Source: Rhyzopertha dominica (Eukaryota > Arthropoda > Insecta > Coleoptera > Bostrichidae). From it: a stretch of DNA of 64,000 nt. The position numbers were made by a program, and so were the translations under genes. Below, one piece after another: positions 9,481-51,491 of the stretch. Below the pieces are notes generated by a model. It saw nothing but the letters and a program-made list of their open reading frames with translations, was not told the origin of the DNA and searched no databases. The DNA lies in contig QCXZ01000138.1 of NCBI GenBank assembly GCA_025024175.1, positions 53,477,092 to 53,541,091 on the forward strand. The letters run 5' to 3'. Each line of letters opens with the position of its first letter. The first letter of the stretch is position 1.

Positions 9481-9493
9481 ATAAACAGCAAAG
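9481..9493 (+). other. cpx: Complexin 5'UTR part of first coding exon
   Basis: Thirteen bases lie between the splice acceptor (AG at 9479-9480) and the start codon. The context before the ATG is CAGCAAAG, followed by G, a favourable insect initiation context. The acceptor shows that transcription starts in an exon further left. Confidence 0.75.
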
Positions 9494-9548: not shown

Positions 9549-10689
9549 GTGAGTCTGAAATTATATTATTATACATCGCTCAGTTGCTGCACCTACCAAG
9601 TCACCGGAGTTTATGACATTTTATTTCGCTTTATAAAAAAAAAGCTCAAAAAGTGTGCTAGATGAAGTAAATGCATTTAATTTTAACAAAAACACCATAC
9701 AACAAACGGGTTCTTAAATATTCATTCATACAAAATTCGTCTAGTAACAACTGGCTCCACCATTGAAGCGTCAGTTTAGTGCCCTTAAATACATAATCAA
9801 TGGGGATATTGAACATAGAGATGACCTATTTGGGCAAGAAAAGTTTTACGTTATTAAATTATTATTTTGTAGTAATAATCGTATCAAATAAACCGTATCA
9901 TCAATTTATCAGCGCTGTATCCCGGCCAATATCGTAACACTTCGCCTTCCACAAACATGTAAACCGAAACAATGTCCAGAGTATATTCCCATCCCCCCCA
10001 TTTAGGTCGGTCTCGCGTATAAAAGCACAGTCTGCACCCTAAATAGAAACAAATGGCCCCGTATACGTTTCGCCTCGCGTCTTTCGCTTCCTTTCGATTC
10101 CTCTAAGTCCACCCAATAAGAAAGGCAAATACAATTTGCCAAAGTGTGCCATGCCGACTGAGCGGTCCATTGACTTGCTAATACGGGAGTGTGTTGCTTC
10201 TCCTATAGGAACTGAACTGGAAGAGGCTAATCCTGTAGAATTAAAAACGGGAGGACGCGGTTTCATTGTTGGGGTTTTGCGGGAAAAGGAGCTCGGAGCT
10301 GGTGTTTGGGAATTGGGTTCCGTGCTCGGGGTATTAAGAAGTGAGTTGCCTGCTCGCGACGTTGACTAATTCAACAGAAGGAATAAATCCTTTGAATTTT
10401 CTTTTCATTAAAACTAACAGCGTTAAGCTTCCGTAGTTTTGGAATCTACTGTTCTCGATCAAATTCGTTGGTCGTTTTTTTTTAGTTTAAATACTAGTTT
10501 TCTTCACAGGAGTGAATACAAAATCTTGGGCTACATGGTAAAAATTAGTGCAGATATTAATAAAGTTCCCAATTTCTCGTGATTGCATTTTATTGAATGA
10601 AAGTTATACTTTTCATTACTTTATACGTAGCAATTCAAGACAACATGATTTACGCGTGACAACGCCCACGCGTCAGTGACCCGGACGAG
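9549..10689. other. Intronic stretch, no recognised gene
   Basis: Includes a CpG-containing block at about 9960-10370 with overlapping frames on both strands. None has a known domain or splice context. Confidence 0.4.
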
Positions 10690-10723
10690 TATAAATACCC
10701 GAGCAGGCTAGGACACTTCAGTT
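10690..10723 (+). promoter_or_regulatory. TATA plus initiator core promoter (retroelement-derived?)
   Basis: TATAAATA at 10690-10697 is followed by the arthropod initiator TCAGTT at 10718-10723. The initiator A is at 10720, placing the TATA box 30 bases upstream, the expected spacing. Sixteen bases downstream of the initiator begins a hammerhead-like motif shared with the Penelope-like copies, so the most economical reading is the terminal repeat and promoter of a Penelope-type element. A host promoter cannot be excluded. Confidence 0.55.
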
Positions 10724-10735
10724 TCAGAGCTACTT

Positions 10736-10783
10736 CTGAGGAAGACACCGACATGAGTGTCGAAACGTCCAGGTCTAATAACC
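10736..10783 (+). ncRNA. Hammerhead-like ribozyme motif (Penelope-type)
   Basis: CTGAGGA at 10736-10742 matches the hammerhead core CTGANGA. One A follows, then a stem GACAC (10744-10748) / GTGTC (10757-10761) with an 8-base loop, then GAAAC at 10762-10766 and the tail GTCCAGGTCTAATAACC. The same order and tail (GAAACGTCAGACCAATAACC) appears in the minus-strand Penelope-like copy near 20959-21003. Penelope-like elements are known to carry type I hammerheads in their terminal repeats. I could not pair a convincing stem I, so activity is unproven. Confidence 0.45.
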
Positions 10784-11097
10784 AACGTGGGAACCAGCCC
10801 GGAAAACAACATGTCGCCAGTATATTTTTGTAGGACTTTGGATACATTAGAACAATCATTGCTAGGTTTACTTCGTCCTATATGTGCCATTATAGCATCT
10901 CCGCTTAACGCTTTAAGAATCGTCGTAATGCTCTGCAATAGCCAAACCATATAATGAATTTGTGAACAAGTTCTCCATATTTGAATCAGTCAAAATTTAC
11001 AAATTTGACTATCATAATATGGAGCTTTAATGCTTGTTTACGTTTCGTATAAAACTAAATTTATGGGCTGGTATTATAGGTCGTTGATCCATCTTTC

Positions 11098-11208
11098 ATG
11101 AATGGAAATGTAAAAGCAGATATCTACCTAAACCTACTGTGCGATAATATTGTACCCGACATTGTACATTTATTTTCGTATGAGGATGACTGGAGTACTT
11201 TTGACTAA
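11098..11208 (+). pseudogene. Possible DDE transposase scrap
   Basis: A 36-codon frame, ATG to TAA, includes 'NGNVKADIYLNLLCDNIVPD' and 'DDWSTF'. This resembles the segment of Tc1/mariner-type transposases leading into the W-x-F-Q-Q-D block (G-N-V-x-x-x-x-Y-L-x-x-L-x-x-x-I-V-P), truncated before the second catalytic Asp. The similarity is short and may be chance. Confidence 0.3.
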
Positions 11209-11243
11209 AAGACGAAGACTTGTTTAAAGGCAATGAAAAATGA

Positions 11244-11600
11244 ATGTTTATTGATAGTACTTTATCTTTTAATGAGCATATAGATCATGTATATAAACAC
11301 TCAATACAAGCGCTAAAATGTTTATATTCTTTCAAATTTCAGCTTGGGCAACAAGTTAAAATAAGACTGGCCAAAGCATTGGTGTATCCCTACATAGAGT
11401 ATTGCGCACACATTTCCTTACTCAGCAAAATAAAGACAAAGTGCAACGAGTACAAAATGCTTGTATCGGATTTATTTATAATATCCCGTACACCGAACAC
11501 ATTAAACCGTACTTACATACGTAAAGATACTTTTTCTATTTCTCTACACTCCACAAAAAAATTGAAGGATGTTTTTCTTATTTTGCGCCGTCTTTGTTGA
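11244..11600 (+). pseudogene. Non-LTR retrotransposon RT C-terminal fragment
   Basis: The 118-codon frame starts with 'FIDSTLSFNEHIDHVYKHS' and 'ALKCLYSFKF', then 'VKIRLAKALVYPYIEYC'. This is the pattern following the palm in Jockey/CR1-group reverse transcriptases (D-x-x-L-S-F-x-x-H-I, then L-x-x-A-L-V-x-P-x-x-x-Y-C). Everything upstream (endonuclease, RT palm) is missing. It runs on the same strand as the CR1-like element at 14130 but is much more decayed. Confidence 0.6.
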
Positions 11601-11620
11601 ACAAATATTTACAATTTTTG

Positions 11621-14129
11621 CATTCATCTTTGACTAAGTTTAATAAAATGGTATGTAGATATGATGTCATAAAAGTAATCTAATATATTTTTATTTGTAC
11701 TATGTATAATTTATCGTGTATACGATTATACAGCATTTAATTTCGTTATCTGTTAAATGAACTTAATTATTATGTTGTTAGTGTAAGAAAATATGAGTGC
11801 AATTTAATTCGTAGGGGAACAGTGGAAGACAGGTATTACCTGTTTCCGTTTGTATAAACAAATAAATTAACGTAAATCTTTCAATAGTAGGTTCATTTTG
11901 AAAATGGAGTGTTAAAAAATTAATCGTGTGAAAAATACATTAGTAAATTCTTGCAATGTGATTTACAACGCATTAAACTCGCATAAAATATAAATTATCT
12001 AGTTTTGCTATTGAAGTGTATTACTTTATCTGCTCTCACAATTAAGATGATGCTTATTATTTTGTTCTGCGTTGCATATACGCATTAAATTTTTTTTAAG
12101 AAAAATTGATGTAGGTATCTGTTCTTACAGATCATACCAACACTCTTCGTAGTTCGCAAAGCCTCCATTAGATGATTGATAAGCGATTTTCACATAATGA
12201 CCCCCAAGTCGTGTCCACGTGAATAAAATGAAGCAACGCGACGACATGTATATATTGTGCTGTACTTTGTGGTTTGTGGCCACGTAAACATTTTAATACT
12301 CCCCTGAAATTGACGAATAAACTTTTAAATCCATCCAGAGCGTTACGTTGAAAAAACAAATTTGTTTGTACACGGATTTAAACAACCCTTAATTTTTAAA
12401 TCGTCGGAAAAATACCGCTCCCGCTCTAAAACATCTGGCGGTAATAATCCAGCGCGCTCGATGTCAGACGCAGCCACATTTATATTTTACGCGAGGATTT
12501 AGTGGGAAACTGCAGTTATAATTGAGTTTTGCCGGTGAAATACTGGAGCTTTTGCCGTTTAAATCATTCGTCGGGCGAGTGAAAGTCCGTCCGTAATCAA
12601 ATTACAACATCAGTGCTCAAAAATTGCTACGAATCCAATCAACGTAAAGGTTAATGCGCCGTGCTAATGAACACCTCCTTAAATGCGACTTGGAAATAAT
12701 TTAGCGACTGAAATTTTTAAGCCAAAGTGGAACGCTAATGGGGTCCCGAAATTATACTTTCAATATTTAAATGGACGGTGAAATATTTCGAGACGGTGCG
12801 ATGTGGCGAGCGGCGAGGAAAAAACGTTTTCGGAAAGATAAATGGCATATACTTGGTGTGAGTGTCCAATAAATAACAGTTAACTTCAGTTAAAATGAAA
12901 GACACTAGAAAAGAACAGATTTTAACTTTGAAATACTCAATAATAGTTACTTTCAGTGCAACCAGAAATTTAAAAGAAGCTAGCTAAATCCTGCTTCATT
13001 TTATTTAATAAAATACACAAAAATGCAGCTTCACAAGTGAGAAAATGTTTTGAACAAAAGGTACAAGCTTTAAGCTCTGCTGATTATCGTCATCAATTGT
13101 AGTGTTTTCAATGGAAGAATGGAATGGAATGGAAGAGGACCTCAGTCCACTTTATCTTTTATGTTTGTGTATATCAAATCCTGGTTTATAACAGATCAAT
13201 TCGTAATCAAGAAGAACTTTTTGCAAGGATAATTGTAGCATTTACACATGTATAAATATTCATGGAATCTTTCATAGACTTACATTTCCATCGTGTGAGT
13301 TACCAAAATTGGTAATTTTCAGGGTACTTCTGTTCTGAAGTTTCTCGCTTGTGTCCCTTTGCAAAAGAGCAGCCTGCACACTAAATGTTTGCACGTTACC
13401 GCATATTTCCGCAATTTTCGACGAATTTAGATGCATGCACAGTTTAAATGCACTGACTCAGCTTCAAACAAAATCTTTTTCCTAGTCCCGTCTATAGGAG
13501 CACCGCGGCAATTATCCACAACTTCACAAAATCCACACGGAACAGTCGAAAGTTTTCGTTCCATTCTAACCACAAACTTGAGGCTGCTCGTAAAGTGTGG
13601 CTTCCACTCTGCTAGTGCTGTGCTCTCTTTTTTTTTGTTCCTCTTCCACAGAGATAATTTGAACCCTCCAAAAAGTTGCTAAACTGTAAGATATACGAAA
13701 CGGAACACAACTTCCACCGCGGACGGCCAAAGAAACTTTCCCCTCAAAGAGCAATTAGGTGCGAAGTTGGCGTCGGCTACCATCATGAGTTCGCAGCTAA
13801 AGGCGGTATCAGCAGTTTGTCTCTTGGAGAGGACGCAGTTGTTTGCGTGCGGATCAAATTGGACAAGTTAAGTTGGCTTTCGTTGGAGTTACAGTGTTTT
13901 TTTTTTTAGAAACTTAACGACCTAGCGGGATAACCTCCTAGCTCACGGCATGATGGTGTGTAGAATTTTACATTATTCGTTTGTCTTAGGGATATTCCTA
14001 TCAGTAGTTTTGAAAACATATCGATCATTGCACGATTTGATCTTGACGTTGTAGCAACAATTGTTCGAGTATCTCTGTAGATTCCAGCATCTGTACGTTC
14101 TGAATTCTTTTAGTTTTACTGTAATATAC
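11621..14129. other. Intronic stretch, no recognised gene
   Basis: AT-rich flanks with a CpG-containing block about 12370-12840. Short frames at 13431-13909 on both strands overlap one another and lack recognisable domains. A small GGAATGGAAT-type run lies near 13111-13137. Confidence 0.4.
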
Positions 14130-14142
14130 AGATGATAACTTT

Positions 14143-15609
14143 TTGTCGCTGCCCTTTTGCGTAACTGCCATCACCCATATCATAAATTACTGCCTTATCA
14201 ATGGCTTAGTGCCAACTATTTGGAAGAAAGCCTTAATAACACCATTGCCTAAAGCAAACCGAGATGTGACAATAAACGACTTGAGACCTGTGAGCGTTTT
14301 GTGTACACTTAGCAAAGTCTTGGAAATCGTCGTGCAGAGGCAGCTTTCCGCACACCTTAACCGGAACGGCATACTACCGGTTAATCAGTCTACTTTTAGG
14401 AAACACCACAGTACAGCTACAGCTTTGACTAGAATAACAGATGACATTGTCCGTCAGATTGATGAAAACAGAGTTAGCTTCCTATGCATTCTTGACTACT
14501 CAAAGGCTTTCGACTCGATTGATCGTGAGCTACTTCTATCTAAGCTACAATACTATGGCATAGAGGGTACTGCGTTCAATTGGTTTACCAGCTTTCTGTC
14601 CGATCGAGTACAGGCGGTTAGAATCGATGGCGTGACATCAGACTGGATTACGATAGCGTATGGGGTGCCTCAGGGTAGTGTGCTAGGCCCCTTAGCTTAT
14701 AGCGTATACATTGCCGACTTTCCTCGAATGATGCCTGAGAATTGGGGAATGCATTGCTATGCGGACGACATTCAATGTTACGTGTCGTGCTTTCCGGAGG
14801 AAGCCAATCAGATTATAGGTGTAATTAACGAGACTCTTCAATCGATCGTTGACTGGTCGGTCATTAATGGTCTTCAACTGAATGCGAGGAAAACTCAGGT
14901 GATGTGTATCGGCTCTGTAAATTGCATTCGGAAAATGCCACAGTGTCTTAGTGCGATTCTACTGAACTCTGAAGTGATTCCTCTCTCCAAGGAAGTGAAA
15001 AACCTGGGTGTAGTAATAGACCCTCATCTGTCCTTTGAGCAACATGCTGTGCGTAAGTCATCAATGGGGTGGTGGAAATTGAAATGTCTGTGGAAGTACA
15101 AGAACACATTATCACCGGAAATAAAATGGAGACTTGCCAATGCACTGGTACTCTGTCACTTAGATTATTGTAACACAGTGTACTACAAATTTCTGAGTAA
15201 TTCAGTGAGGGACAAACTTCAATTATTGCAAAATGCATGTCTACGGTTCTCATTTTTAATAGGTTACAGGGACCATATCACCCCACATTACAGACTGTTT
15301 AAAATACTAAAACTTAATGAGAGATATATACTGTCGTTTTGTGTGTTTTTACGGAGGATTATTTCTAGTGGGTTGCCAACATATCTTCGCGAACGTCTGA
15401 CTCGGAGATCCGATATTCATGATGTAGACTTGCGTTTTGTACATAGTCTTTCTATTCCTAGACATAAAACTCAGAAATTCAAAAGTAGTTTTGAATATAC
15501 TGCTGCCATATTGCATAATCACTACACTGGCATATTCTCTGAAAAATGTAGCCTTATAACGCTTAAGAATAAAATATCTTGTAAACTGCTAGAATTATAT
15601 GAGAGGTAG
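14143..15609 (+). CDS. Reverse transcriptase (ORF2 fragment) of CR1/Jockey-group LINE
   Basis: The frame is open for 488 codons from a TTG at 14143 and has no authentic start, because the element is 5'-truncated. RT blocks appear in order: 'LITPLPK' and 'DLRPVSVL' (residues about 30-55), 'FLCILDYSKAFDSID' (motif A, about 110-125), 'GVPQGSVLGPLAYSVYIADF' (about 170-190), the catalytic 'CYADDIQCY' (YADD, about 205), then 'LQLNARKTQVM' and 'NLGVVIDPHLSFEQH'. A typical intact ORF2 of this group has an apurinic endonuclease domain before the RT; it is absent here. Catalytic Asp residues are present. It makes no functional element by itself but could in principle be translated from a host transcript on the same strand. 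Confidence 0.85.
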   Translation: MSLPFCVTAITHIINYCLINGLVPTIWKKALITPLPKANRDVTINDLRPVSVLCTLSKVLEIVVQRQLSAHLNRNGILPVNQSTFRKHHSTATALTRITDDIVRQIDENRVSFLCILDYSKAFDSIDRELLLSKLQYYGIEGTAFNWFTSFLSDRVQAVRIDGVTSDWITIAYGVPQGSVLGPLAYSVYIADFPRMMPENWGMHCYADDIQCYVSCFPEEANQIIGVINETLQSIVDWSVINGLQLNARKTQVMCIGSVNCIRKMPQCLSAILLNSEVIPLSKEVKNLGVVIDPHLSFEQHAVRKSSMGWWKLKCLWKYKNTLSPEIKWRLANALVLCHLDYCNTVYYKFLSNSVRDKLQLLQNACLRFSFLIGYRDHITPHYRLFKILKLNERYILSFCVFLRRIISSGLPTYLRERLTRRSDIHDVDLRFVHSLSIPRHKTQKFKSSFEYTAAILHNHYTGIFSEKCSLITLKNKISCKLLELYER

Positions 15610-15717
15610 GGATATTTATATATCTTTCGTGTATCTATCTATGTTTGCTTTATACTCAACTGTTGGTTTTTTGGATTAAATTAATCTGCTAATTTTATAT
15701 GGAACTGCCCTTAATGT

Positions 15718-15735
15718 AAAACGGCTAGCCGTTTT
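15718..15735. repeat. 18-bp perfect palindrome in LINE 3'UTR
   Basis: AAAACGGCTAGCCGTTTT is its own reverse complement. It lies 108 bases after the RT stop codon and 38 bases before the AATAAA signal. LINEs of this group often need a 3' stem-loop for template recognition by their RT; this is a good candidate for that structure. Confidence 0.6.
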
Positions 15736-15802
15736 AGAGGGCTTTTGAACTATGTATACCTTGTACATTGCTCAATAAATAGTATTATTATTATTATAAT
15801 AT

Positions 15803-18800
15803 CACATAGCATAGCATGACTCAAGTAATATTGCTAACACAGAGATGATAGTGATTGGTTTGTAGCTTTCTACAGACCTCTTAGTGCCCTTTAATAGACA
15901 GGAATAACTTTTGACAGTTTTAATAAACGAATGAAATACAGTTTGTTCGATAGAGTGGTTTATAATAAACGTAACTGAGTTATAATTAATGTATATATAA
16001 TAATGTACATAATTTTGGACTCTCTTCTTTGGTCGTCATGATCGCACTGACCTTTTTCCTTTTATCAAGTAATATATATGTTTGTTTTAGATCAGACCGA
16101 TATTTTTTTACAATGGACACTGAAAGCATTCACCGTCGTAATACAAATGATTGCTTAGCCCAAAAGTGTAGGGACAAATAGAAAATAAGACCTCGTTGCC
16201 TGCCCTGTTTTGCACGGTGTGCGTATTCTACCGTATAAAGAAAATGTANCCTGGACGAATATTACAAANCAGAATATTTAAGAAAACCGAAGGCTTGACA
16301 ACGGCANCATACCGCANTTCAACCTTAAAACCCTCCGACACGTACCAGCGCAGCGTCTTGGGAATGCCGCAGATTTCTTGTCTCTCGTTTTTTCACTTTC
16401 TCTGTCACGATCATTGAGCACGACTTGTGGGTATTTCCCAAAAGGAAAATTAAACAGTGATAAATCCGAACCTTCCCAAAGCTGGCTCCTGACAAGACAA
16501 ATTGTTTATTTAAAAGTATTCGTGAAATCCTGACAGAGCGTTAGTCCAGCACCTTCAGGCTGTTACTAATTCAGACGTGTTTTCTTTAGCCAGAAGAGAA
16601 TGAGTTGCTTAGATTCGTGAAGTTCCTTGTTCACGTCCATCAATGCAAATTGGTGAACCGGCACGAGCAAATTTGTTGTCTCCGGATGAAGATGTCGAGA
16701 AAGCATTTGTCGAAAGGCCTAAGTCAATAATTCCGCTGAAGGGATGGGCATGGTCCAATTAATATGCGGCTGGGAGAGAGTAAACAAGAAGTAATATCCA
16801 TAATATTATTGGACACCCTAATAACAAAATTAAATGAGCTTTACTTTGGAGTGGGAAGGGATGATTTATTAAGGTTTGTAATTTGGTGGAGTACATTTAA
16901 ATCTACGCTTTCGGATTTAAACCATATAGAACCCTTGACCATGGGTAAATATCACTATTCAGCGAAAGCTGCACCCTCCAAAATTCATTGTAGAATTTTG
17001 GGAAAATATGCATTTGAAAATGTCGATCCAGATAAAAATGTTATCGATTCTGAAAGATTATGCGGTCATTGTATGAGTATGGGGACAATCCATATTTGGA
17101 TATATACAATTATTATTCGATCACTGTTCATATGCTTTNTGTTAAAATAAAATGGGAATTATACACTTTTTGTAGCCTGTGCTGAAAAAAATCTAATATA
17201 CAAAAATCTGTATCATTTGCCTGTTTAAATTGAAACGCCGGGGTGTTACCAAATTAGCTTGAAAGAGGAATGAGCTGTGCTGAACTTATTATGAAAATAT
17301 TCCTCGAAACGTGGGTCGTGATGAAGCTTTTAACGTTTCAACAGTAAGTATTGTAGAACCAGAAATATGCGAATGCAATTTAATAGTCTATTTAACTTTT
17401 CCTAATTTTTACGATACTTAACTACAGACTGCTATAAAACTGTTTGCCTGCCAGGCGATTATTGTATTTGAAATCATTCAACCGTTACATTGAAATGTAA
17501 CGACTATAAGTCTGTTTGCGTTTGACAGACTTGCAGATATTTGAATAATAGATTAGATGTTAAAAACCAAAAAGCATCATAGGTTATTTTTAATGATTGT
17601 TTTGATACTGATACCCAGCTAATTGATTAGCCGTATATTATAACATTTCTAAGCTAAAGTCCTGACATTACTTGCAGGTATTAATTATGATAACGAAATA
17701 TTGAAATGCAACCTAGTCCTCTGCTCTAAACCAAACCAGATTAACCTGAGAGGGTTAAAATACACCTACACCTTCTCACTATTTTCTGTAGGGTGTGACC
17801 CCATAAAGGAATAACAGCCCCCTGGAGTCTTTAGCCGAAAATGCTTGTTAAATTGGTCCGTTCGTTGGGAACCTTTCCTATCTCTAGACGGTCGTTTTTG
17901 TGGTATAGCGCATTAGCACTTGCTGAGCTGGAATAAATTAGACCACTAACGGAAAAAGCAGCAATGTAAAAAAGGAGAAGTAAAATAGAGAACTTTTAGT
18001 ATTTGCATTATATTAAGAAAACTGAATCCAAACAATACTGCAGCTCTAATCAAGAAAGTGGTTGTCGCTTCATTGCATTAAATACATATTACGGCGCATT
18101 TAAACTTTAATTATAGTTAACTGTGTGTAAGCGTTCAGTCTGTCTAAATTAGTACGCCCAGTAAATGAGCAGCATTTCAAACGTTTTATCATGATGCCGA
18201 TATTTCACAGAAATCCCCGTTCCCCATTACGCTGCTATCAAAACAGTAAAAGAAAGAGTTCATTAAGAAAGAAATATAGGTCCATAAAAACGAAACGCCC
18301 CATTTAAAATCGTTAAGTGATAACAAATAATACATTCGCTGTCAATTTGGCTTGATAAAGAGACTGGGTTCCTACTGTGCGTGATGCTTTCGGCGCTATT
18401 CAAGCTTTCGTGTAAATTTTCCTTTTTCTTTTATTTCGATTTGCTGGGGCAAATGAAGAAATTAAAAAAAAATACAATAGAAAATCAGAACAAGGGAGTG
18501 TTTGCCGTTTTTCACTTGGACTCTTGTACCAGGGCACAAGCGAATTATTCACACAGTTGTCTAACATTTTAGGGATAAAATTGACCAAATAGCTCGACCG
18601 TGACAAATTTGAAAAGCTCTACCCAAGGTTCTACTGCAGTTACTGTCAATTCTGATCATAAGCGCTGGTTAAATTATTAGTACATGCTTTCATTTGTAAT
18701 ATTAATAAGTTACGGGTGTATTGTAAACCTATTCTTATGAGCAGTATTTATTTTCCGAGTCTCGTAAAATTAGGCATAAATGATATACCGCAAATTAATT

Positions 18801-19249
18801 TAGAATGTATGTAAAATTCATGATCTTGTTATTTTAATGTGAATGCAACGGTCAGAACTTAGACATCTAATCTAGAATATAAATGAGCTTTTTTAGAATA
18901 TTTGTTGTTGTCTTATGTTGAAATTGCCTGTCTAATATTAAATATTTTTTATAAATTTCAAGTAATCTCAAGATTGTAACACATAAAATTATTAAATAGG
19001 CAAAAAAGTTTCATTATTGTCTAAGGGGATGTTCCTAAATTGTTTAGGGATATCTGAAAATGGTCGAGGATTTCTCAAGATTTTCAAAAATTTTCGAGGG
19101 AATATTCTGGCATGTACGGGGATGTGCTTGAAAAAAAGGGATGTCTGGTGTACAAAATTCGCTCAGAGGTTTGTATATTTATGGTCTACTAGATTTTCTT
19201 CAGCAGAGGATTGTTGACAGCAAAAAGTACGGGCCTTTTATCAGCCACC
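15803..19249. other. Intronic AT-rich stretch, no recognised gene
   Basis: The frame at 16764-17150 (+) reaches 128 codons but has no recognisable domain or splice signals. Four single-base ambiguities lie at 16249-16317. I saw nothing else. Confidence 0.4.
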
Positions 19250-19620
19250 CTTTCGAAGCCCTTCTGTTCTTTCTCATGGACCTGTATTAGCAGATAAACA
19301 CCCCCAGGGCCCTCGAGGCCAGTATGGCTCGTGGTTTTCGGGTTTTATAGAGTGGCGGATTGCGTAACGACACGGAAAGGGCCCGCGGCCAGACCACGTA
19401 AGCCTGCATGCGCCTGTTTCGACGTGTGCAGGCCATTTTTCTGCCGTCCGGTAAGTGGAAAATGTGCAATCACAGGAAGAACAATGCCGCCGGTCGGGCG
19501 GAGATGTGTAACGTCCTTTTTGTACCGCTTTATTGAGGGGAAACTCGCCCACGACCCCGCAGAGGGCATTGTGTAAAGTTGCGTTTTCAGCTAGTATTGT
19601 GCTGGGGAGAAACAATGCGA
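19250..19620. other. GC/CpG-rich unique block
   Basis: A sharply GC-richer block with overlapping frames in several phases of both strands, the usual effect of low stop-codon density in GC-rich DNA. No domain is recognisable in any of them. It is a candidate conserved noncoding element only by composition. Confidence 0.3.
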
Positions 19621-20899
19621 GGTATTAAACAGGTGGAAGGAAATCTTATTTTCTAACTGGAACTGCCCGCTTTTATTATGTCACTGGGCTGTTCCGTTTC
19701 AGCGGGCAATAAGAAGCTCTTCCTGGAAGAGGAAACAGGCGGAAAATTTTACAAAGGAACTGTTGGAAAACGAAGTATTCTGACGTGAATAATATGAGTC
19801 AGACATATCCCAACGTATTGCTTCCTTTAGTCATGTTTCTTTCCACTTGTTTCGCTTTTCGTGCCTGCGCGCTGATTATTCTTCGTTCATTCTTGTAAAG
19901 TGCCCAAATTGTTAGCTGATCTTTTCTATTGTTTGTGTGCTAGATTTCTCCGATTTCTTATTATGTCGATTCTTGTCACGCATTTGATGCATCTCAGATA
20001 GTTATTTTGAAATATCTTGAAACAGATCTGATTTAAATAAACGCTTTATACGTCACAGTCAATGATATCTGACCTTTTTCTCAGTCAACCCGGTACGTGA
20101 TCCCTTTATACGTCGCTTATTTTCCGACGCGTGCGATCGCAATTAGATTTGGCGCGTTTCAGGCTTGCAGAAGTTCTGTTTTGAAGCGGGACCGCTTCGC
20201 TACACATCCTCGCTCTATTAGGCTCAATTACCCTAACAGGATTAGGCGATGTCGTCGCCTTGGGTGGCGGGTTTCTTTCGAGATTTGCCGTTGAAGTTGA
20301 ATCGTAGCTCAACGCATCCACTCTCCATCTGTAATTGGATAAAATCGAGCCGGCAAACTTAATACAATAAAGTAGTGTTCGGATAACAGCTGGGATAATT
20401 GCAAAGCGAGTACGGTGAGCGGCACAGCCGACCGAGGCGCTGCTACAAACGTAACTGAGTTACGTGTAGATTACTAGTTAGATGGAGTGGTGATTGGTCC
20501 TTTGATTAACTGCAGCGTGGAGAGGAGGATTTTACGAAGAAGCGACGGTTTTAGGCCCTATTATCGCCGGGGAGTAAATTGAATAGGCTCTCGAAAAAAG
20601 CAGCAAAGCTAGTTGTCAAAGAGGTAGATTCAAAAGGAGCTTAACATGTGATCATGAAAGAACCGTTATTCGGTATTATTAGGACCATATATCTCACCTT
20701 CAAACCATTAAATATTTCTACTAAGATCGNCTGTATGCCCTTTTCACACGGAAAGACAGAACATCCAAGATATTTGACCCCATTCTTCTCTTTAACTCTT
20801 AAACTTTTAAAATCGTTGTAGGCAAAGAATTCTAAGAAGTCAACGTTTTTTCTAAATTTTTCATTGTAGAACGAAGGCCCATACATTGGGCAAATGTTT
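19621..20899. other. Intronic stretch, no recognised gene
   Basis: Contains a CpG-containing part about 20090-20460. The minus-strand frame 20641-21006 runs out of the Penelope-like tail into unrelated sequence and is not a gene. Confidence 0.4.
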
Positions 20900-23408: not shown

Positions 23409-23439
23409 CTAATACTGATTTCCTTTGTTTTAGGTAAGT
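23409..23439 (+). other. cpx: Recursive splice site 1 (AG|GTAAGT, junction 23433/23434)
   Basis: A branch-like CTAAT (23409-23413) and a second CTGAT lie just before the tract TTTCCTTTGTTTTAG, which is fused directly to GTAAGTC. The 3' and 5' splice sites share one junction with no exon between, as in ratcheting points of long insect introns. The branch A is about 21 bases from the AG, the expected distance. It is on the complexin strand, 13.9 kb after the exon donor. Confidence 0.75.
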
Positions 23440-23473
23440 CACCAGATTGAAATGTCATGGGCTTGATTTAACA
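23434..23473 (+). other. cpx: Candidate recursive exon 1 (40 nt, stop-containing)
   Basis: A second 5' splice site, ACA|GTAAGTA, lies at 23473/23474. Use of it would include a 40-nt exon. Joined in phase 1 after the complexin exon, it meets a TGA within six codons, so inclusion would truncate the protein and invite decay. Competition between the two donors is the behaviour described for recursive exons. Confidence 0.5.
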
Positions 23474-23882
23474 GTAAGTACCTTTGTTTGTTGCAAATAT
23501 AATGCAGGTAATTCTATATTAAATGCTGTAATAATCACCATGGGTATATAAAAAGCAAGGAATTGCACCTACTACACCCAAAAAACCTAATAACATAAAA
23601 TGAGGTGTAAAGGTTAACAATGTTTAGTCACTTGCAATCTGAAAACTGTTACTAACTAGCTCGCGTTGACTTGCTTCGCCAGGTCAATTAGAACATTTAA
23701 AAGACTGTAACATTCTATAGGAATAAACTTATGGAAATTGTGTTAATCTAGAGATGACGTTTCGGCAATATACCACACTTGAGAAGTCTTATATAGTTAA
23801 ATCTGTATTGGTTTAAGTAAAAGTTTCTCTTGCTTTTTAGAAGAATACTACAAAAAATGTATCAGAATTTATAACAGTTTGA

Positions 23883-24432: not shown

Positions 24433-24439
24433 TAACTTC

Positions 24440-38029: not shown

Positions 38030-38060
38030 GTACATTCTTTTCTTTTTGTTCTAGGTGAGT
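38030..38060 (+). other. cpx: Recursive splice site 2 (AG|GTGAGT, junction 38054/38055)
   Basis: The tract ATTCTTTTCTTTTTGTTCTAG is fused directly to GTGAGTACTG. This is the strongest pyrimidine tract of the three sites. It lies 14.6 kb after site 1 on the complexin strand. Confidence 0.75.
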
Positions 38061-38086
38061 ACTGAGCTTCCATTCCTTAATTAATC
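38055..38086 (+). other. cpx: Candidate recursive exon 2 (32 nt, stop-containing)
   Basis: A second donor, ATC|GTGAGTA, lies at 38086/38087. Joined in phase 1 after the complexin exon, the 32 nt hit a TGA at the fourth codon, so retention would be non-productive. Confidence 0.45.
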
Positions 38087-41000: not shown

Positions 41001-44000
41001 ACTGTAGCTCATTTGGTAGCGACCGATTTAGAAACCTAATCTTAGCTAGAATTAAATTGAAGTACAGTTTATATAAAAATAGCATACGACGGATAGTGAC
41101 AAAAATCCATTGTGCGGAAATGAGTGATAAACAGATTAGCGGTGGATACGGCCGGTCCGGGCCAATTAACAGTCCGAGCGCAGCAAATCCATCACGGAAG
41201 GACATTGGACTGGGGCTGCGTGTCAGCAAAAATTGCATTTTGTCGTTGTTAATCCGAGGGATAATGCACGAGCGGCGTGCCGACTAGTATTCATGGACCA
41301 GAGCGCGACGATTTAGGACACGAAATATATCACCTGGGTAATTTCACAGTAGTGAACACGAGACGCTTAACTCAGAATTGGACTCGTAAAAGAGGTCTGA
41401 TCGTGCCAAAAGGGCCAAACGATGGGATTATAATGCATAATAATCGTAAAGGGATTGTATAATACGCGTTAGATCGGCGGCAGTTAATGTATGGTCGTAA
41501 TTTTGCTATGCATTGCGGTGGCACTTAGGCAAGTGGTGTATCGTGTATTCTTACCCATAATTTTAACCACACAACGTACAGATGCTGGTCGATTTAAATC
41601 GATAATTGGCGATTATTGAAATACCAGAGCTTTATGTATGGGCTAAAATAAAATAAAGATTTTGTTCATTCTAAATTTTAAACACTAACTGACTACCTCA
41701 AACGAAAAAACTTAAAGAAGCAGTGTATCTAATTGTAGCACCAAATGACAAATTATTAATTCATAAGATAAAGTGTTAAATATGCTTTTGTATTTAGGTA
41801 GCAATGACCTGACCATGTGATTATTCCAATTGCATCTTATGTTTCCAAAACGTGGGGCCATCGAATAAAATACTCTAAAATAAGATCTTAACTAGTCTCG
41901 TTATCTTCTCTGCTCGATGTGCGGGGGGTTGCCCCGTATAAAAAGCTGTAAATTATTAAAGAAGGGGAATAGTATGTCCAAATACATGCACTTTGAAGAC
42001 CCGATAGAGAAACTACTGGAGTAGTTTGACACTCCTATGATTCAATTGGAACCTATTCCTTATTTACCCACGAAACTTATTGAAATTTGCCGCTTCTCTA
42101 CCTTCTGCTCCGGCCTGATATCTTCGGTGTTATGAGTGATATAAAAGGACCTGTTTTTTTGTAATTTTGTGTTTCTTCTCGTGGAAATAGTGATATGCGT
42201 CAGTAGTAGTTAATACTGTAAATCTGCACCTGTACTGTAGGAATTAATGTGTTCCAACTAACTGAAGTGGCTCCCTATTTGATGCCTTATTACTACTGAT
42301 AAAGTCCTTCTTTAGCGTGTTTTTTTAAACTAAGTATGGTAAGCATTCGGAAATAGCATGGTCGTACAAAATCAATAATTTGAAGACAATAGACGTCTTT
42401 CTATGGGTTTCCTCTCGAACTTTTACGACCTTTTTGCCAGCCTGGTGAATTTATGACCCAGACAAAACAAAATCAACAGCATCCGACTCGTGAGGGCAAC
42501 GCCTAATCTACTTTTTAAAGCGCGAATGCCCCTTCCGCCAAGTGATCTAATTACACGCGTGCGTGCCCTCAGCCCCTATACAATAAAGCAGTCAACAAGA
42601 AAATGGGCCCTCGTACAAGAAGTATCACCTTAAGTCAGGATAATAGCGCCTAAATTAATGCTATTACGTCTTATCTTGAGAATATGCAGCTGTAATTTAG
42701 TGTAGTTTGCGGCCTGCTGCATGAATATTTAGCGCGAAACGCTTACTGTAATTATGTGTTGGGAATAATAACTGACGGGAGGGCGATAAGATAACGCGAC
42801 GCGTATGTGCGGTTGCATAGGCTGCACGCCGGACTGAATTTCAGCAGAGGGATGTCACACCGGGCTCGAATAGGTTAAATGTTCAGATTTAATGAAATTC
42901 CCGTCAAGTCCACTGTATTCAAAATTGTTTTACAGCGTGGAAGCGGTGTTTTTATTGAGGGTATTCGTTCGGTTCATTGCTCGGCTTCAAGCGGTTTTAT
43001 TTTAATACAGCACACTGTGGGAAATGCCAGGGGGGTGCAATAGGCTCCGATCAGATATTTTTACGGCCCTTTAAAGGGAGTTTTTGATTGCTTGCAATAG
43101 GCGAATTCGTGTGGAAAATTGCAATTAAAATAAGGGAAAGTTACGTGGGATCAGCAATGAGATGCAGCCAATGAAAATTTGTCTAGTTTACCCACTTTTG
43201 GCTTTGTGATTTCATCCTTTAAGCTATCAACTTAGCTAAAATAGATGCTAATTCTCAAGCTTGACTGCAATTCACAGTCATCAGAACAATTGTAAATTTA
43301 CTGTTCACCAGCGTCCTTCAACATGTTACAAAATTAGTGTTATAATTTCCATTCACCATTCATTGGACCGAAGCTTCATACCTGATTGCGAGTAAATCCG
43401 GCGCGATACCAATTCATACTTCTATATAAAGTCACGCCGTTTCAGCTCGAAAACGAATTCTATCCTGGAAGCCGGGGTCCAGAATTTAATTAAAACGCCG
43501 ATTCCCTTTGAGGTATTCCGTGCAGTCGTGGATTTAGAGAGCGGCATCGGGTGCATACTTTTAACTGCAGAATTTACCGTCCGCTCGCAAACTTTGACCA
43601 TTCCAAGCTCGACCACGTTGTGCGCCGCCAGAAAAGGCCAAGGCCTACCGTCCGTCTTCAAAACAGCCGAATGTAAATCATCCCGCTTAATTCGAGCTTA
43701 CACGTCCCCCAATTCCCGAAGGCATCGACCATAACCACCAGAAGTAGGTTACAAGAGATCGAAGTCGGTCGAGCTTTTTGCAACCCCCTCGCAATGCGGT
43801 CTGGATTCTCTCTGCTGCGGGTCGGCACATCGCGTTGGCCCACTGCCAAAATGTGTAGCGCCGATATTGAACCGGATAGGGGGATCCGCTTTACTGCCCT
43901 TGCGTTTTAGGCCCGTAAAATTTATGCCTAGGTATATGTGTGTTGGTTATTACGGCCGCACCCCGGGTGAGGTACGAAAGCACGCTGTGTTGTTAGGAAG

Positions 44001-44096
44001 CGGAAGTGAATGGAATAGTATATACAAAAGTAGTAGTAAAACAATAAGCAAATCCACGTTGGATTCGAGAAGGACATTTTCAAACTATCTACTCGA
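38087..44096. other. Intronic stretch, no recognised gene
   Basis: CpG-containing blocks lie about 39000-39480, 40080-40320, 41090-41480, 42420-42860 and 43390-44000, separated by AT-rich sequence. Frames up to 110 codons occur in these blocks in overlapping phases and show no domain. A tRNA-like string near 40985 fails for lack of a B box. Confidence 0.4.
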
Positions 44097-45175
44097 CGAA
44101 TTGAGCTGAATCCAATTATACTTACTGATTTGGACCTCCTGTATTTCGGAATGGCCTCAGTTGGTCGCTAGCTACAACGGTTCGCTCGGAAAGTGTCCTT
44201 ATTTAGGCCGCCCGCAGTCCTAGCTCATTTTAGAGCATATTTTTGAAATCTGCAGCTTTAAATACATCAGTACGTCGATTTTGAGCTAAATCTATTTTTT
44301 GTCAAAAATCACAAAACATCCAAGGCTAGCCCCTTTGTTCTTTTTTGACCTTAAAATTTGTTCGTCTCCGATTCAACTGAATACAAGTATACTTATTGAT
44401 TTGGACCTCCTGAATTTCGGAATGGCCTCAGTTGGTCGCTAGCTACAACGGTTCGGTCGGAAAGTGTACTAATTTAGGCCGCCCGCGGTCCTAGCCCATT
44501 TTAGAGCACATTTTTGAAATCTGCTGCAGCTATAAATACATCTGTACGTCGATTTTGAGCTAAATCTATTTTTTGTCAAAAATCACAAAACATCCAAGGC
44601 TAACCCCTTTGTTCTTTTTTGATCTTAACATTTTTTCGTCTCCGATTCAGCTGAATATAAGTATACTTACTGATTTGGACCTCCTGAATTTCGGAATGGC
44701 CTCATTTGGTCGCTAGCTACAACGGTTCGCTCGGAAAGTGTACTAATTTAGGCCGCCCGCGGTCCTAGCCCATTTTAGAGCACATTTTTGAAATCTGCAG
44801 CTATAAATACATCTGTACGTCGATTTTGAGCTAAATCTATTTTTTGTCAAAAATCACAAACCATCCAAGGCTAACCCCTTTGTTCTGTTTTGACCTTAAA
44901 ATTTGTTCGTCTCCGATTCAACTGAATACAAGTATACTTATTGATTTGGACCTCCTGAATTTCGGAATGGCCTCAGTTGGTCGCTAGCTACAACGGTTCG
45001 CTCGGAAGGTGTCCTTATTTAGGCCGCCCGCAGTCCTAGCTCATTTTAGAGCACATTTTTGAAATCTGCAGCTCTAAATACATCTGTACGTCGATTTTGA
45101 GCTAAATCTATTATTTGTCAAAAATCACAAAACATCTAAGGCTTTGTTCTTTTTTGACCTTAAAATTTTTTCGTT
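44097..45175. repeat. Four-copy ~271-bp tandem repeat
   Basis: The marker GATTTGGACCTCCTG recurs at 44127, 44398, 44672 and 44943, giving periods of 271, 274 and 271. The fourth copy is cut short and runs into the transposase frame. Variants at several positions group copies 1 with 4 and 2 with 3 (for example GTCCTTATTT versus GTACTAATTT), an A-B-B-A order. The repeat is not coding. Its junction with the transposase suggests amplification inside or at the edge of the DNA transposon. Confidence 0.85.
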
Positions 45176-45185
45176 TCTCAATCGG

Positions 45186-45657
45186 AATATCGGGGAATCA
45201 AATTGTTGGGCCTTATTTTTTTCGCGATAGATTAAACGGGAATACTTATCTAAATTTTTTAAGAAACATTTTACTAGTACTTCTCCAAAATGTAAATTTA
45301 CAAGTAAGACAAGATCTATGGTTCCAACAAGATGGGGCACCTGCGCATTATCATAGAATAGTGCGAAATCATCTTTATTTGGCTTTGCCTAACCGATGGA
45401 TAGGAAGAGGTTCAATTAATTCTTGGCCACCGAGAAGCCCGGACCTTACTCCTTTGAATTTTTTTCTGTGGACAATGGTAAAAGAGCAAGTATGCCAAAC
45501 ACCAATCGAAAGTGTGGAACATTTAGAAAATAAAATACTTAATGCATGTAGATCCATCACTCCGGAAATGTTAGTGCATGTTAAAAGATGGTTTTGGGCA
45601 CGAATTCAAGCTTGTGAAAACAGCGGAGGGCGACATTTTGAGCATTTATTGCATTAA
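45186..45657 (+). pseudogene. Mariner-superfamily (DDxD-type) transposase, C-terminal half
   Basis: The frame holds 'IVGPYFFRDRLNGNTYLNFL', 'LWFQQDGAPAHYHRIV' (second catalytic Asp in QQDG), 'WPPRSPDLTPLNFFLW' and 'ITPEMLVHVKRWFWARIQACENSGGRHFEHLL'. This is a common insect IS630-Tc1-mariner branch. Spacing from the second Asp to the third catalytic position is 41 residues (DD41D-like), but that position is Asn where the family has Asp. The N-terminal half with the DNA-binding region and the first catalytic Asp is missing, replaced by the tandem repeat. It is inactive on both counts. Confidence 0.8.
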
Positions 45658-45882
45658 TATTATTGAGTACACATTTTTCAAAAATAAAATTTGTTTTACA
45701 ATACCGAATTTATTTAAAGCAAATGATTGAAGTTTAAGTCAAAATTTACGAATTTATACAGCTCCACGTTTTATATTTTTTAAGACGATGAACAATTATC
45801 AATGTTACCTCTGCAATTGTATTTTGGGTTGCATTTTTAATTTCGTCAGGGTCATTATCATTCGTGAAACATCCTGTATAAA
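45658..45882 (+). mobile_element. 3' flank and terminus of the mariner-type element
   Basis: After the transposase stop comes AT-rich sequence, ending in TCATTCGTGAAACATCCTGTATA at about 45860-45882. That is the mirrored form of a TATACAGGATG terminus typical of this superfamily. No matching 5' terminus was found at the left edge of the tandem repeats. Confidence 0.45.
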
Positions 45883-48800
45883 GGACCACCTTCCTCAAGG
45901 CGATTGTTATAATATCTCATTACGGTCCGAAGACCTCCTTCAGCAGCATCTGTCGACTAGTTTCCATTCAAACATCCAGCTGCACGTGGTGCGCACCCCA
46001 TTCTTATAACAAATGAATGCAGATAGCGGCAACAGAGACTGAACAATGATGAATTAAGATAAACCGACCTCGATAAGCGTTTCTGACTGGACAGACACAG
46101 AAACAACGTGATAAATGAAGAGCGAATCGGTAGAACCGGACGGAGAGCCAGCCGTCGCTACAGCTGCCCTTGGAAGTGGACGGCGACGATAACGCTATCC
46201 AATTGTGGCGTCCGACGCTTATGGAGCTTGCATGGCTGGCTGGGTTCGATATTATTAACGTGATCCGTACGAGTCGTTAGCCGCTGTCGCCCTTCGGAAA
46301 GGGGTACTGCTTAGTTGTGTGTAATTAAAGGCATGGCTATGCAGACGCTATAAAGGTCAGTCTTGAGCTATGTTTGGTAGAAGGGTTCAAAACGGAGCCT
46401 ATCGACCAGCTAAATAGTGATCTTGAATTAATTTGCAAAGCTAAGGTTCATAATATGTTGAGAGTTATAGGTATGATTAAAGAGAAAGACACGAATTCTA
46501 ATTTCAACAGGATAAAGATATGATACTTCACTTCCGTCTTTAAATTAAAAGGCATGGAGGATTTCTTAAATGCGCAGCAGTCCAGGTAGCAAACAGATGC
46601 TTAGAATACATGGGTTGTATTTAGATAGCTTTCCCTTAATTTATCAGTGTCGCTGTCCTAAACTTAAGCAAACACATACACTGAGTTAGTTGTATCTAAT
46701 GGCTCTTAGAATTTCAAACCGTTTGCTGCTTTCTATTTTTTCTTTTCCAACATAAGACTTGTAAAACGCAGACCGACCGACATATGTACTTTTATATTTT
46801 TGCGGGATTTGATTAAATAACGTGGCTGCATTAGTTTCTTTTAGAATGCCATCGAGTACATCCGCCACTGCTACTGATGAAGATATTGGCATCCATGATC
46901 GAGAAAAGAGTGTCCCCAGGTCATCAAGGTCCACCAACTATCAGCAAAATCTACACTATCCACCAGATAATAACGGACGTCCCCAGTTTTCCGAGGAAAA
47001 CGAACAAAATTTCCACAATCTCGTCACGTTCCTCGCGTGAAGAGGACGTGCGGTAAATTTCCGAGTTTGACTTTTGGCCGCGTATAACTCCATTCATTTG
47101 GAGATAGCCGTTTATTAAAACTTGAGCCCGTCGCGTAATCCCGGGGCCCGGGTTATGTAAATTAACGATTTGGGCGGTCGGCCGGCGGCGGCAACTCAGT
47201 ATTTAACACGTAAAGTGAGATGTAAGGGACGTAAATCGCATACGATGTATACGGCCGTGCGGGGCTTGATCTGCATTTTTATCGCCGCGCCGTGGTGGGC
47301 TTCGCGACTTTATGTCAAGTTGGGGTATTGTAGTGGCCATGTTGGACAACGATCGGAATGACCCAACATCAATATTGACTATCGGCGGTTTGGAATAACG
47401 GCTTGGACAGTAAACATGTCCGGTCAAACAGAATCTTGTCCATTCGGTCGAAGTTGAATAAAATCTACATCGATTATTGTTTACATAACCAGCTAAGCAT
47501 TATTGTAGTCGAAATACCTAAAAACTAAATATCAATAGAGTGTTGGCATCTTAAAATATAGGCCAATCTGTGAAAGTAACGTTACTTACTGTAATCAGTA
47601 TGTACGATAGCCAACGTTCAAGTAGTCATTAATGTTCGCTCTCTTTTTAAATGCTGTAGGTTTTAAGGTTTAAGGTTTTAATCGTTTCAGTTTATAGCTA
47701 TTTATCCATAGCTTTTCCTTTCATATAAGAATACTGAGACTATCATTTACATAATATAGTGTACATGTTTTATAGGTTGCATATTTTTCCGAGAGTGGCG
47801 TAAATTGTTAATTTTGAACCTCATCAAATACTTAATCGTTTGTCACAAGGAGACACTGCTGAAAAACGTAGTTTTCTTTATTGTTACTACACATCCTTCC
47901 GGATTACATTAAAAACTTGCAAAAAACTTCTCTAAGATAATCAGGAAAAACCTGAAATGTAGAAAATCATACTTTAAACACACCTGCTTCCATCCAAACC
48001 TCTGAATACCCAGAACTTGCTATAGGGATGACATAACGCTTTGAACAAGACCGAATTTCCACCGCGGCTCTCCCAATTACCCCTTCCCCTTCTTTCAAGA
48101 ACACATTTAATTGATGCTTTCCGTCGGTTTTAATAAAACTTCCTTTCCCGATGTGCCCTATCAACGGCAGATGACGTCGACCTTGTTTACGCAGCCTCCT
48201 CGATTACAAACGGGAACTTTCCCGTTGGTTTATGANGAAGGGGGCCCTTGTCGCGCCCTGAGTGACATCAGACGGTTATATTAACTGTACGCATCGTAAC
48301 GACGTTTCGACCTATTTTGGCGGAAGACACGCGCGTGGAAAATACGTCTTCGTGATGTATGTTCGTTCCCGCTTCATTTAAACTCGAGTGGGCTGGCGAT
48401 ATTGCTCGTTATGGGCGAAAACCGCGGAATTCTAGGGCATCTTAGGATGGGGGGCTAGTAGAGTTGTCGTGACGTCATGCTACCACGCTTTTGATTAAAC
48501 TTTTATCTCCAGTGTAATAAAACAAAGAGTGTGATGTTTATAGAATCAAAGTTGTTTGTAACTCCATCTAACAAATGTTCTTCTATCACTCAGAAGGATA
48601 TCGGGATTTAATACATACACAAATATCTACCCTCAAAACATTCTTGTTTACGGCAAGGCTATATTTTACATTTATATGTTTGAGAAAGAACGTGTTATAT
48701 TCAGCCAATATACACCCCGTTTCTCCAATTAGCGAACCTGCCAATGGCTCTTTTCAGATAATTTTCCTGGAGATGAATGCACTTCAGTTTAAATTGCCAA

Positions 48801-51460
48801 TAACGCAACGCTTGATATCAATTCAATTTATGCATACGTCGTAGAATTCCGTTCCGAATTGCTGCCGACAGAAAAATTGCATTTTGCAGCCTTTGGTATT
48901 GTAGTTGACATCTAATTTCCTAGCCATCTACTAAATATGGCCATCCTAAGGCGAAATCACAGAGAAGCGAGACAACAGAAAAACTATATTGCAAACGATC
49001 TCGATAGCAGCTGATCTAAAGTTTTTACTAATAATTCTGTTTTGACGAATGCATTTATTAGAGTAAATTAAGTACAATTTAAGTAAATCACCGAAGAACA
49101 AACTAGAATCGAACCGTAAGAACTGATTTATTACTATAGTAACAAACTCAGTTACTGTCGTAACATAAATGCTATTTACTTCTAAACACTGTTCCCTAGA
49201 ACTTTTATGCTGAACTTGTTTTCAAAACAGCTGAATTGCCGCTTACGATAACACACAGAGCATCTGCTAAGGACGTGCCGTTGGGATACGTCCTTTCGGT
49301 TAGCGCAAAATAGAGACGTCCTGGAAATGGCGCAGCGTTCAGCTGAATAATCGGATTCCGCTGAAGCCGTCGTCGAGTTTTCTCCGTGAATTTTCTGATC
49401 AGATAATCAACTGGAGAGACGATGGCGGAGTCAACAGAAGTTAATAGCGCGGATTATTAATTTTCGGTTCGGCTGAAGTAGTAGTCGAGCATTCTCGACC
49501 GCCTGCAGCGGAATTATCATCTTGAGAGCGACGTGGTCTTATTTTTGTGACGGCGATTAGGAATAGTTGAGAAGATTTGGTTTTCTGCAATGAGTAGGCG
49601 GGTATGATGCTTTTATTGCGTTAGTCGGGAACCTTATTAGGAATTTAATTCTATGCAGTGTAAACTGTAAAAGTTTCTGGTTTAATTGGATCTTTTTGTC
49701 TCTAGGTACATTTTTTGCCATAAAAAATATAATATTATTTAAGCGCAAGAGATTATTTTTTCATGTTGATCCACTACTTCAAAAAATTCCTGAATTTAGA
49801 AGAGTATAAACGAATTATTTTTATCTGAAACCAGAACGATCTTTCAAGTCCCACGGCGGTATATTCCCCGGCCATGCCCTTTGTGAAATATATTTTACAC
49901 GTTTGCAGATTTTATAGATCACATATTTCGTGATAATGCTCATCAGGAAAATAACCGATGCGCAAAATGCCATTATATTTCACGCTAAACAATGGCAATA
50001 AATATATTCTTGCATTACACAGTATCAAAACAAACTGCATATATATTTTATGTGTACATATATACTCGCTTCAAATGAGCATTCGTGCTGGTAGCGCTTA
50101 ATTAAGAACGTACNCGATGTTCANCGGCACAGGCCCCTCATACTAAGCAACATGAAGGACCTAAATGTTGTGAACCGGAAAGTTCAGTAGCTGCATGCAC
50201 ACATATCCTTTGCCCACTGAAGCATGACCTAAGTATATGCGTGGAGGGTCACATCTAAAGGATTGCTCTTTCGAAGGTAGAGCAACATCACAGAGGGAGT
50301 ATAATGTTTACTTCTCGAATGCCTAGTGTGGTTTAAAAGCATTCCACTTTTAAGGGTAGGCTATAAATACAAGAATGATGTTAGTTTACTTGTTGCGTAG
50401 AAACAGGTTTTAAAAAATCAGTTTATAAACAAGTAATTTATGAAAGCTTTATTTATGCCAATATGTTTCCACATATTTTTTGTAATATTTGGTATTATCT
50501 TCTTGTTATATATTGCATAGCCTGAGCCGAAAAAAAGGTCGCATTTCACCTGTTATTGGACCTAAAGGATCTAGTAATCTGGCTAAAAATGTTTTTTAAA
50601 GTCCTCTCGTTTATATCGGGTTTCGTCAGATTCACGGTGCAAGTCAATGTTGTTGTAATTTTTATTTGATAAATAGATTACTTTTTCGTGCAACTGTTGT
50701 GGTGTTTCGATAGGTTAACTGGATCTAGGATTAAATCGAGCTCTAAAAGGTTGATGTTATATAAATTAGAGATTTCTTCAACGACTACTTTTTTAGTAAC
50801 AAACGGCCCTTACTTTATGTATATGGCTCTTACTATTGCATGGCTGGGTAGGTACCTACTGACTTGGCAATCAATGTGTTTTGTCGTGATCTCAATAATT
50901 ATATTTCATACTTCAGAAAGCACATTTATCAGCAACATCCTGTCTGTAATTCTCGGGCCAGAAGGGACGTTTCTGTAATTATCTGTCATTTAAAAATTAA
51001 TTAACCGCCAGATGAGTTTGTGCGCTAAAAATGCGATCCCTTTGAAGCACGACGTCCTCATTTTCAGGCCAATAACTGAAACTGCGCTCTCGGTTATTTC
51101 GGTACCTGGATCTGATGGCGGTTAGAAAAAATTGCCCCGGAGTTACGCCACGTAGAGCGCCATCTGCAACTGCCGGCGGGATAAGCTCCGGTGCAATTTT
51201 AGAATTTTATGTTCGTTTTTTTATCCGCCTTAAACGGCCACAAATAAAACTTACCGGCACTAACCGTAAGTAACCGCACCGAGGTTTTATTAAGGATATT
51301 TCTCGGGTATGTGACATCGAAAGCGTTTCAAAAGGAAGTACTTTTAAGTTTTATGCTGGGCGTTCTTTGCAATTTTCGTTATGTCCCATAAATGTTGCCA
51401 TATTTCACGGGCATTTTGTTCATTACTGGTCCTTGTTTTCAACCCGAAAGGCCGTTTTAC
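45883..51460. other. Intronic stretch, no recognised gene
   Basis: CpG-containing blocks lie about 46020-46300, 47040-47430, 48000-48480, 49240-49550 and 51000-51300; the rest is AT-rich. No host exon was recognised on either strand. Confidence 0.4.
46686..46937 (-). pseudogene. Possible RT C-terminal scrap
   Basis: The minus-strand frame contains 'NAATLFNQIPQKYK', followed by a basic helix and a stop. This resembles the A-x-x-L-F-N-x-L-P-x-x-I-K block near the C-terminus of non-LTR reverse transcriptases. The match is short and could be chance. Confidence 0.2.
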
Positions 51461-51491
51461 ATTTAATGTTTTTCTCTTGTTACAGGTAAGC
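51461..51491 (+). other. cpx: Recursive splice site 3 (AG|GTAAGC, junction 51485/51486)
   Basis: The tract TAATGTTTTTCTCTTGTTACAG is fused directly to GTAAGCG, with a TTTAAT branch-like sequence just before. It is on the complexin strand, 13.4 kb after site 2. The donor half has C at +6, slightly weaker than the other two. Confidence 0.7.

Follow-up and report, generated by a model that had tools for sequence, protein, structure and literature searches.

How an intron of 75.5 kb could be removed from its transcript is the question raised by the complexin (cpx) gene of the beetle Rhyzopertha dominica, whose first coding exon lies in the 64,000-nt window analysed here (contig QCXZ01000138.1, positions 53,477,092 to 53,541,091, forward strand; contig C137 of genome G000). 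Four sites in this intron, each a pyrimidine tract and acceptor AG fused to a GTRAGY donor, are very probably recursive splice sites (ratchet points) through which the intron would be taken out in five pieces. Coordinates are window positions, those above 64,000 or below zero referring to the same contig beyond the window, and genome-wide counts refer to the 479 Mb genome.

The initial annotation had listed three fused AG/GT sites on the cpx strand, and direct inspection found each of them as described. Ratchet point 1 (23409-23439, +, junction 23433/23434) comprises a branch-point-like CTAAT, a pyrimidine tract and TTTTAG/GTAAGT, and reads TTTGTTTTAG/GTAAGT at the junction. Ratchet point 2 (38034-38060, +, junction 38054/38055) reads TTTGTTCTAG/GTGAGT, and ratchet point 3 (51463-51491, +, junction 51485/51486) has a branch-point-like TTAAT and reads CTTGTTACAG/GTAAGC. 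A fourth site, CTTGGTTGCAG/GTGAGC, lies beyond the window in the same intron, at 76150 (C137:53553241, +); it confirms a prediction, made in advance, of one to two more sites between 51486 and 85051. The tract and AG fused to a GTRAGY donor are thus present three times in the window and once further along, always on the sense strand of a very long intron with coding exons on both sides.

The ends of this intron could be placed exactly. Its donor GTGAGT (9549-9554, +) was read directly after the exon end (...GTTAAAG/GTGAGT), at the position given at the outset, and exon 2 was located at 85059 (C137:53562150), so that the intron runs from 9549 to 85058. The first coding exon (9481-9548, +) includes the tail of the 5′ untranslated region (5′-UTR; 9481-9493) and an ATG at 9494, and ends in phase 1 with AAAG, its last codon being split with exon 2. 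It encodes MAAFVAKQMVGNKLNAVKG, the same peptide as the N-terminus of many insect complexins. Four coding exons on one strand (9494-9548, 85059-85219, 97871-98000 and 98733-98803) join into an open complexin, closest to Anoplophora P0014 (97% over 140 aa) among 182 proteins compared (the best 120 of 483 and the best 120 of 358 matches), which bears out the original assignment of the gene.

To rank the sites we used generic donor and acceptor frequencies rather than ones specific to the species. Ratchet points 1-3 took the first three ranks among the 360 AGGT sites on both strands of the window. Under Markov null models, 0.09 (order 2) or 0.05 (order 4) sites this good were expected per strand per 64 kb, and simulations containing three such sites numbered 0/150 at order 2 and 0/150 at order 4. 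The minus strand of the window holds two AGGTRAG, both with poor pyrimidine tracts, in agreement with the earlier statement that no comparable fused site exists on the opposite strand. When the scan was extended to 327 kb (2023 AGGT sites, both strands), the top seven were all on the cpx strand, ranked -79383, 38054, -10706, 51485, -27075, 76150 and 23433, the cut at seven being the score of the lowest originally noted site (17.0). The ninth site, -163122 on the minus strand (score 16.4), has no GTRAGT-like donor at 20-60 nt. A candidate at 55070 was rejected as a further ratchet point: it scores 14.1 and lacks a GTRAGT at 20-60 nt.

All seven of these sites, four in the intron and three upstream, share a second feature. 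A GTRAGT donor follows 32-48 nt downstream in 7/7 cases, compared with 32/2019 control AGGT sites having one at 20-60 nt, and none of the seven has a further GTRAGT in the 400 nt that follow it. The distances are 32 nt (-79383), 43 nt (-27075), 48 nt (-10706), 40 nt (23433), 32 nt (38054), 45 nt (51485) and 33 nt (76150). Together with the ratchet acceptor, each donor delimits a short cryptic exon, a candidate recursive splicing exon (RS-exon). The donors at the three originally noted sites had been seen by eye before the count. The remaining four sites had been selected on their ratchet score only and give the cleaner test, with a second donor in 4/4, for which the control rate predicts a probability of about 6e-8. 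Within the intron, sites with both a tract and an RS-exon donor numbered four on the sense strand and none on the antisense strand. Branch-point-like motifs were also enriched, with a YTAAY starting at -23 to -28 in 6/7 sites versus 275/2019 controls (P = 4e-5) and the looser YTRAY in 6/7 versus 413/2019 (P = 4e-4).

The four putative RS-exons of the intron differ in what their inclusion would do. RS-exon 1 (23434-23473, +, 40 nt, then donor GTAAGT) and RS-exon 2 (38055-38086, +, 32 nt, then donor GTGAGT) would each bring a frameshift and a stop after exon 1, and RS-exon 4 (the 33 nt after 76150, +) an in-frame stop. Only RS-exon 3 (51486-51530, +, 45 nt, then donor GTAAGT) is both in frame and free of stops, and would add KRFCSELSVGPNVSS. 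The donor rebuilt when exon 1 is joined to a ratchet point, AAG/GTRAGY, scores 10.97-12.44 with the generic matrix versus 5.84-9.09 for the RS-exon donors, and is the stronger one at 4/4 intron sites.

The splicing steps that we infer for living cells would run as follows. During transcription the spliceosome would recognise, at each site as it emerges, the 32-45 nt cryptic exon by its acceptor and GTRAGT donor, and the acceptor AG would be joined to exon 1. The junction would rebuild a strong donor, AAAG/GTRAGY, to which the cryptic exon's own weaker donor would lose out, and splicing would proceed onward to the next ratchet point with zero bases added. The last removal would run from 76150 to the real exon at 85059, the pieces taken out being 13.9, 14.6, 13.4, 24.7 and 8.9 kb.

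The initial annotation had leaned on near-regular spacing as hard to explain by chance. The gap sizes it gave hold (13,885, 14,621 and 13,431 bases by our arithmetic), and the evenness of these three alone gives p = 0.0013 for gaps picked post hoc. With the remaining segments of 24.7 and 8.9 kb, the whole series is less even, and a Greenwood test of four random points over the whole intron gives p = 0.029, a modest value for which the earlier wording was too strong. Even spacing is supporting evidence only, and the second donor 32-45 nt past each noted site, absent from that annotation, is better evidence. A value of p = 0.0005, obtained by counting an exon at 65582 (described below) as a node, was set aside because that exon is a first exon and not a ratchet point. 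Within the 24.7 kb segment after ratchet point 3 lies a 7.1 kb long terminal repeat (LTR) retroelement (55254-62399, -) with long frames that by eye are gag-, pol- and env-like. Its 213-bp end repeats are 100% identical, which marks it as a young insertion into the cpx intron; it is outside the splice system and lengthens the segment, which without it would measure about 17.5 kb.

Three further putative ratchet points lie upstream of the coding exons on the cpx strand, at -79383, -27075 and -10706, each with a high score and an RS-exon donor. The first coding exon is preceded by an acceptor, ATTGTTTCAG/ATAAAC, and at least one further 5′-UTR exon is therefore expected upstream. Sites -27075 and -10706, which precede the exon at 9481 by 37 and 20 kb, respectively, most likely serve a 5′-UTR intron. 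Site -79383 may belong to it as well, as the nearest recognised coding gene upstream, Skeletor-like by eye, is on the opposite strand.

To place the locus in its genomic context, we searched the genome with a ratchet pattern tuned on the cpx sites, which in the 327 kb matches exactly the seven sites and nothing on the other strand. The pattern had 1442 matches in the genome versus 599 for its mirrored form. A composite that also called for GTAAGT 20-50 nt past the donor hexamer had 293 matches versus 14 mirrored, a site with two such donors being counted twice (as for 2 of the first 100 places), and shifting the donor to 60-90 nt left 41 versus 11. Five of the seven cpx-locus sites are among the composite matches, which leaves 288 independent ones. 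In the first 100 of the 293 places, corresponding to 98 distinct sites, neighbours no more than 100 kb apart lay on the same strand in 31/33 pairs, as expected within transcripts. The RS-exons of these 98 sites have a median length of 44 nt (the pattern permits 26-56 nt), and 35% of the lengths are divisible by three, which is the chance level. Given these counts, the layout of ratchet point and cryptic exon is common in this genome and cpx is one case among many.

Two side observations came from the genome-wide matches. A G at -7 of the ratchet acceptor (TTTGTTTCAG/GTRAGT) was found in 51/98, and this may be a general acceptor habit of the genome, since G at -7 also occurs in the acceptor, an ordinary one, in front of the first coding cpx exon. 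Some ratchet and RS-exon units look alike by eye (C3:4150219 and C3:4159852; C3:5931309; C41:47568654 and C41:47607323; C41:29228079 and C41:29300705, all in G000), giving the impression of a duplicated unit, partly within a locus.

Could the cryptic exons instead be the functional elements, that is, short alternative or poison microexons included in some mRNAs, with the rebuilt donor incidental? Exons 1, 2 or 4 would then bring a stop and lower complexin, and exon 3 would add 15 residues. Every site does carry all the parts of a small exon, acceptor and donor included, RS-exon 3 keeps the frame and has no stop, and isoform X2 of Cimex complexin (P0058) has an insert of about 11 residues, LFSSELKTAKG, at the same exon junction. 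That insert may stem from a coding microexon of the orthologous intron, and the resemblance of its FSSEL to FCSEL in RS-exon 3 is probably due to chance. Against the microexon explanation, the rebuilt donor beats the exon's own at all four sites, an arrangement that in flies mostly, though not always, leads to skipping (PMC8605326). Furthermore, the RS-exon lengths of the 98 sites are divisible by three no more often than by chance, peptide words of RS-exon 3 occur in none of the 182 proteins compared, and an ordinary microexon need not start with GTRAGY. We consider this explanation improbable for the cpx intron.

Coincidental occurrence of a short motif in a long intron rich in A and T is less probable still, to the point of being negligible. 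A 64 kb stretch contains many AGGT, yet the null yields only 0.05-0.09 such sites per strand, and coincidence would have to account for the top seven falling on one strand, for a donor at 32-48 nt in all of them where 1.6% of controls have one at 20-60 nt, for a branch-point-like motif in 6/7 versus 13.6% of controls, and for the 293 versus 14 composite matches. Splice sites carried in by transposons seemed worth considering, given several mobile or repeated elements within the intron, but when the four intron sites were searched in the 479 Mb genome, each with 170 bp of surrounding sequence, there were four matches in total, all of them to themselves. These sites are therefore single copy and not part of repeated elements, which refutes a transposon origin for these four at this sensitivity and leaves it hardly credible as a general account. 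For the three upstream sites copy number was checked within the 327 kb, where BLAST of ±500 bp around all seven sites gave two other matches, one near -10706 and one near 76150, each lying over 250 bp away from the junction. Removal of the intron through ratchet points remains the far more probable account; the reading put forward in the initial annotation gained support from the further site, the RS-exon donors (7/7), the branch-point-like motifs (6/7), the single-copy status and the genome-wide same-strand pattern.

Several observations weigh against recursive removal or parts of it. Positions near 65 and 75 kb had both been named in advance, and no site was found near 65 kb; the fourth segment, at 24.7 kb, breaks the even series. 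Ratchet point 2 has no YTAAY at -18 to -40. The eighth site of the 327 kb scan, -93751 (+), scores 16.9, near the cut of 17.0, and is without an RS-exon donor. The splice-site frequencies behind all site scores are generic rather than specific to the species. The genome pattern was fitted to the cpx sites, and its mirrored control preserves base content but not all composition biases, which makes the ratios of matches to mirrored matches rough. With the end of the alternative first exon at 65582, the margin of the rebuilt donor at 76150 is thin (9.51 versus 9.09). Lastly, even with genuine sites, the first step of the scheme, recognition of the cryptic exon (exon definition), may not hold, because intron definition has been put forward as another route in flies (PMC6110457, Discussion).

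Recursive splicing of long introns, including RS-exons, is already established in flies (PMC6110457, PMC8605326), and the cpx intron resembles those cases closely. In flies the RS-exon is short, about 50 nt, and the ratchet-point donor is generally the stronger; in most cases, though not all, splicing uses the stronger donor and leaves the exon out (PMC8605326). Cryptic RS-exons accompany known ratchet points in Drosophila kuz, Ubx, Bx and others (PMC8605326, citing Joseph, Kondo and Lai 2018). The cpx sites share with them the tandem acceptor and donor, the long intron, the sense strand and the short exon with a weaker donor, as well as exon content that is mostly out of frame or with stops. 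They differ in belonging to another insect order (beetles) and apparently another gene, in the G at -7 that is frequent among the genome-wide acceptors of this beetle, and in being known from sequence alone.

Among fly introns longer than 40 kb, 63% have high-confidence recursive sites, and recursive segments are typically about 9-15 kb (PMC6110457). The cpx intron likewise has several sites in more than 40 kb; its segments, mostly near 9-15 kb, are a rough fit, and the one of 24.7 kb departs from the fly range, partly due to the young LTR element. The first fly site lies at about 33% or 25% of the intron when there are two or three sites, respectively (PMC6110457). By our own extension of that rule, 20% would be expected for four sites, and the first ratchet point here lies at 18% of the intron length. 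A 2009 study reported that ratchet points in the large introns of another beetle, Tribolium, are enriched 8.0-fold relative to the complementary strand (PMC2773006). The kind of motif and the strand bias are the same here as in Tribolium, bee and mosquito, whereas motifs were counted in that study, and the portion consulted names no genes and does not deal with an RS-exon donor.

Judged by titles and the openings of abstracts, we found no paper on recursive splicing in complexin or on RS-exons in beetles, in literature that did not extend to the fly site tables (supplements). The term ‘cpx’ is absent from the main texts of PMC6110457 and PMC8906543 and was not found in the accessible portion of PMC8605326; in PMC8797185 and PMC3315501 ‘recursive splicing’ occurs in the reference lists only. 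What appears modestly new is the layout of ratchet point and cryptic exon on a genome scale in a beetle. Beyond the flies, the locus offers a clean sequence-only case for recursive splicing in several steps, in a gene with a key role at the synapse, and the composite counts (293 versus 14 mirrored) suggest that the fly layout recurs hundreds of times in this genome. Comparing beetles with flies could therefore test how old the mechanism is and by what rule one of the two donors is chosen.

A further consequence would follow if the donor of RS-exon 3 were sometimes chosen. The product would be a complexin isoform with 15 extra residues just after the N-terminal segment, and the ratchet would double as an isoform switch, as in Ubx. 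Recursive splicing would then act as an isoform switch in a regulator of synaptic fusion. In a wider form of this reading, ratchet and cryptic exon are so stereotyped a pair that recursive introns of this beetle could be called from raw DNA. We regard the reading as unlikely.

Between ratchet points 3 and 4 the intron also contains an alternative first coding exon, MNIL(G), at 65582 (C137:53542673, donor GTAAGC). The MNILG start matches complexins of the ladybird Harmonia and the weevil Anthonomus (P0121 and P0125), and given the position of this exon, ratchet point 4 would serve both isoforms. At the other end of the gene, an alternative C-terminal end reads on from the third coding exon; two C-terminal complexin forms are usual in flies.

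Scans of the window with Rfam (at the gathering threshold) and for tRNAs gave no match. Among the mobile and repeated sequences of the intron are a reverse transcriptase frame of the long interspersed nuclear element type on the cpx strand (14143-15609, Pfam RVT_1) and, at 44106-45174 and 45115-45657, a four-copy 271-bp tandem repeat beside a frame that by eye is transposase-like (no Pfam match).

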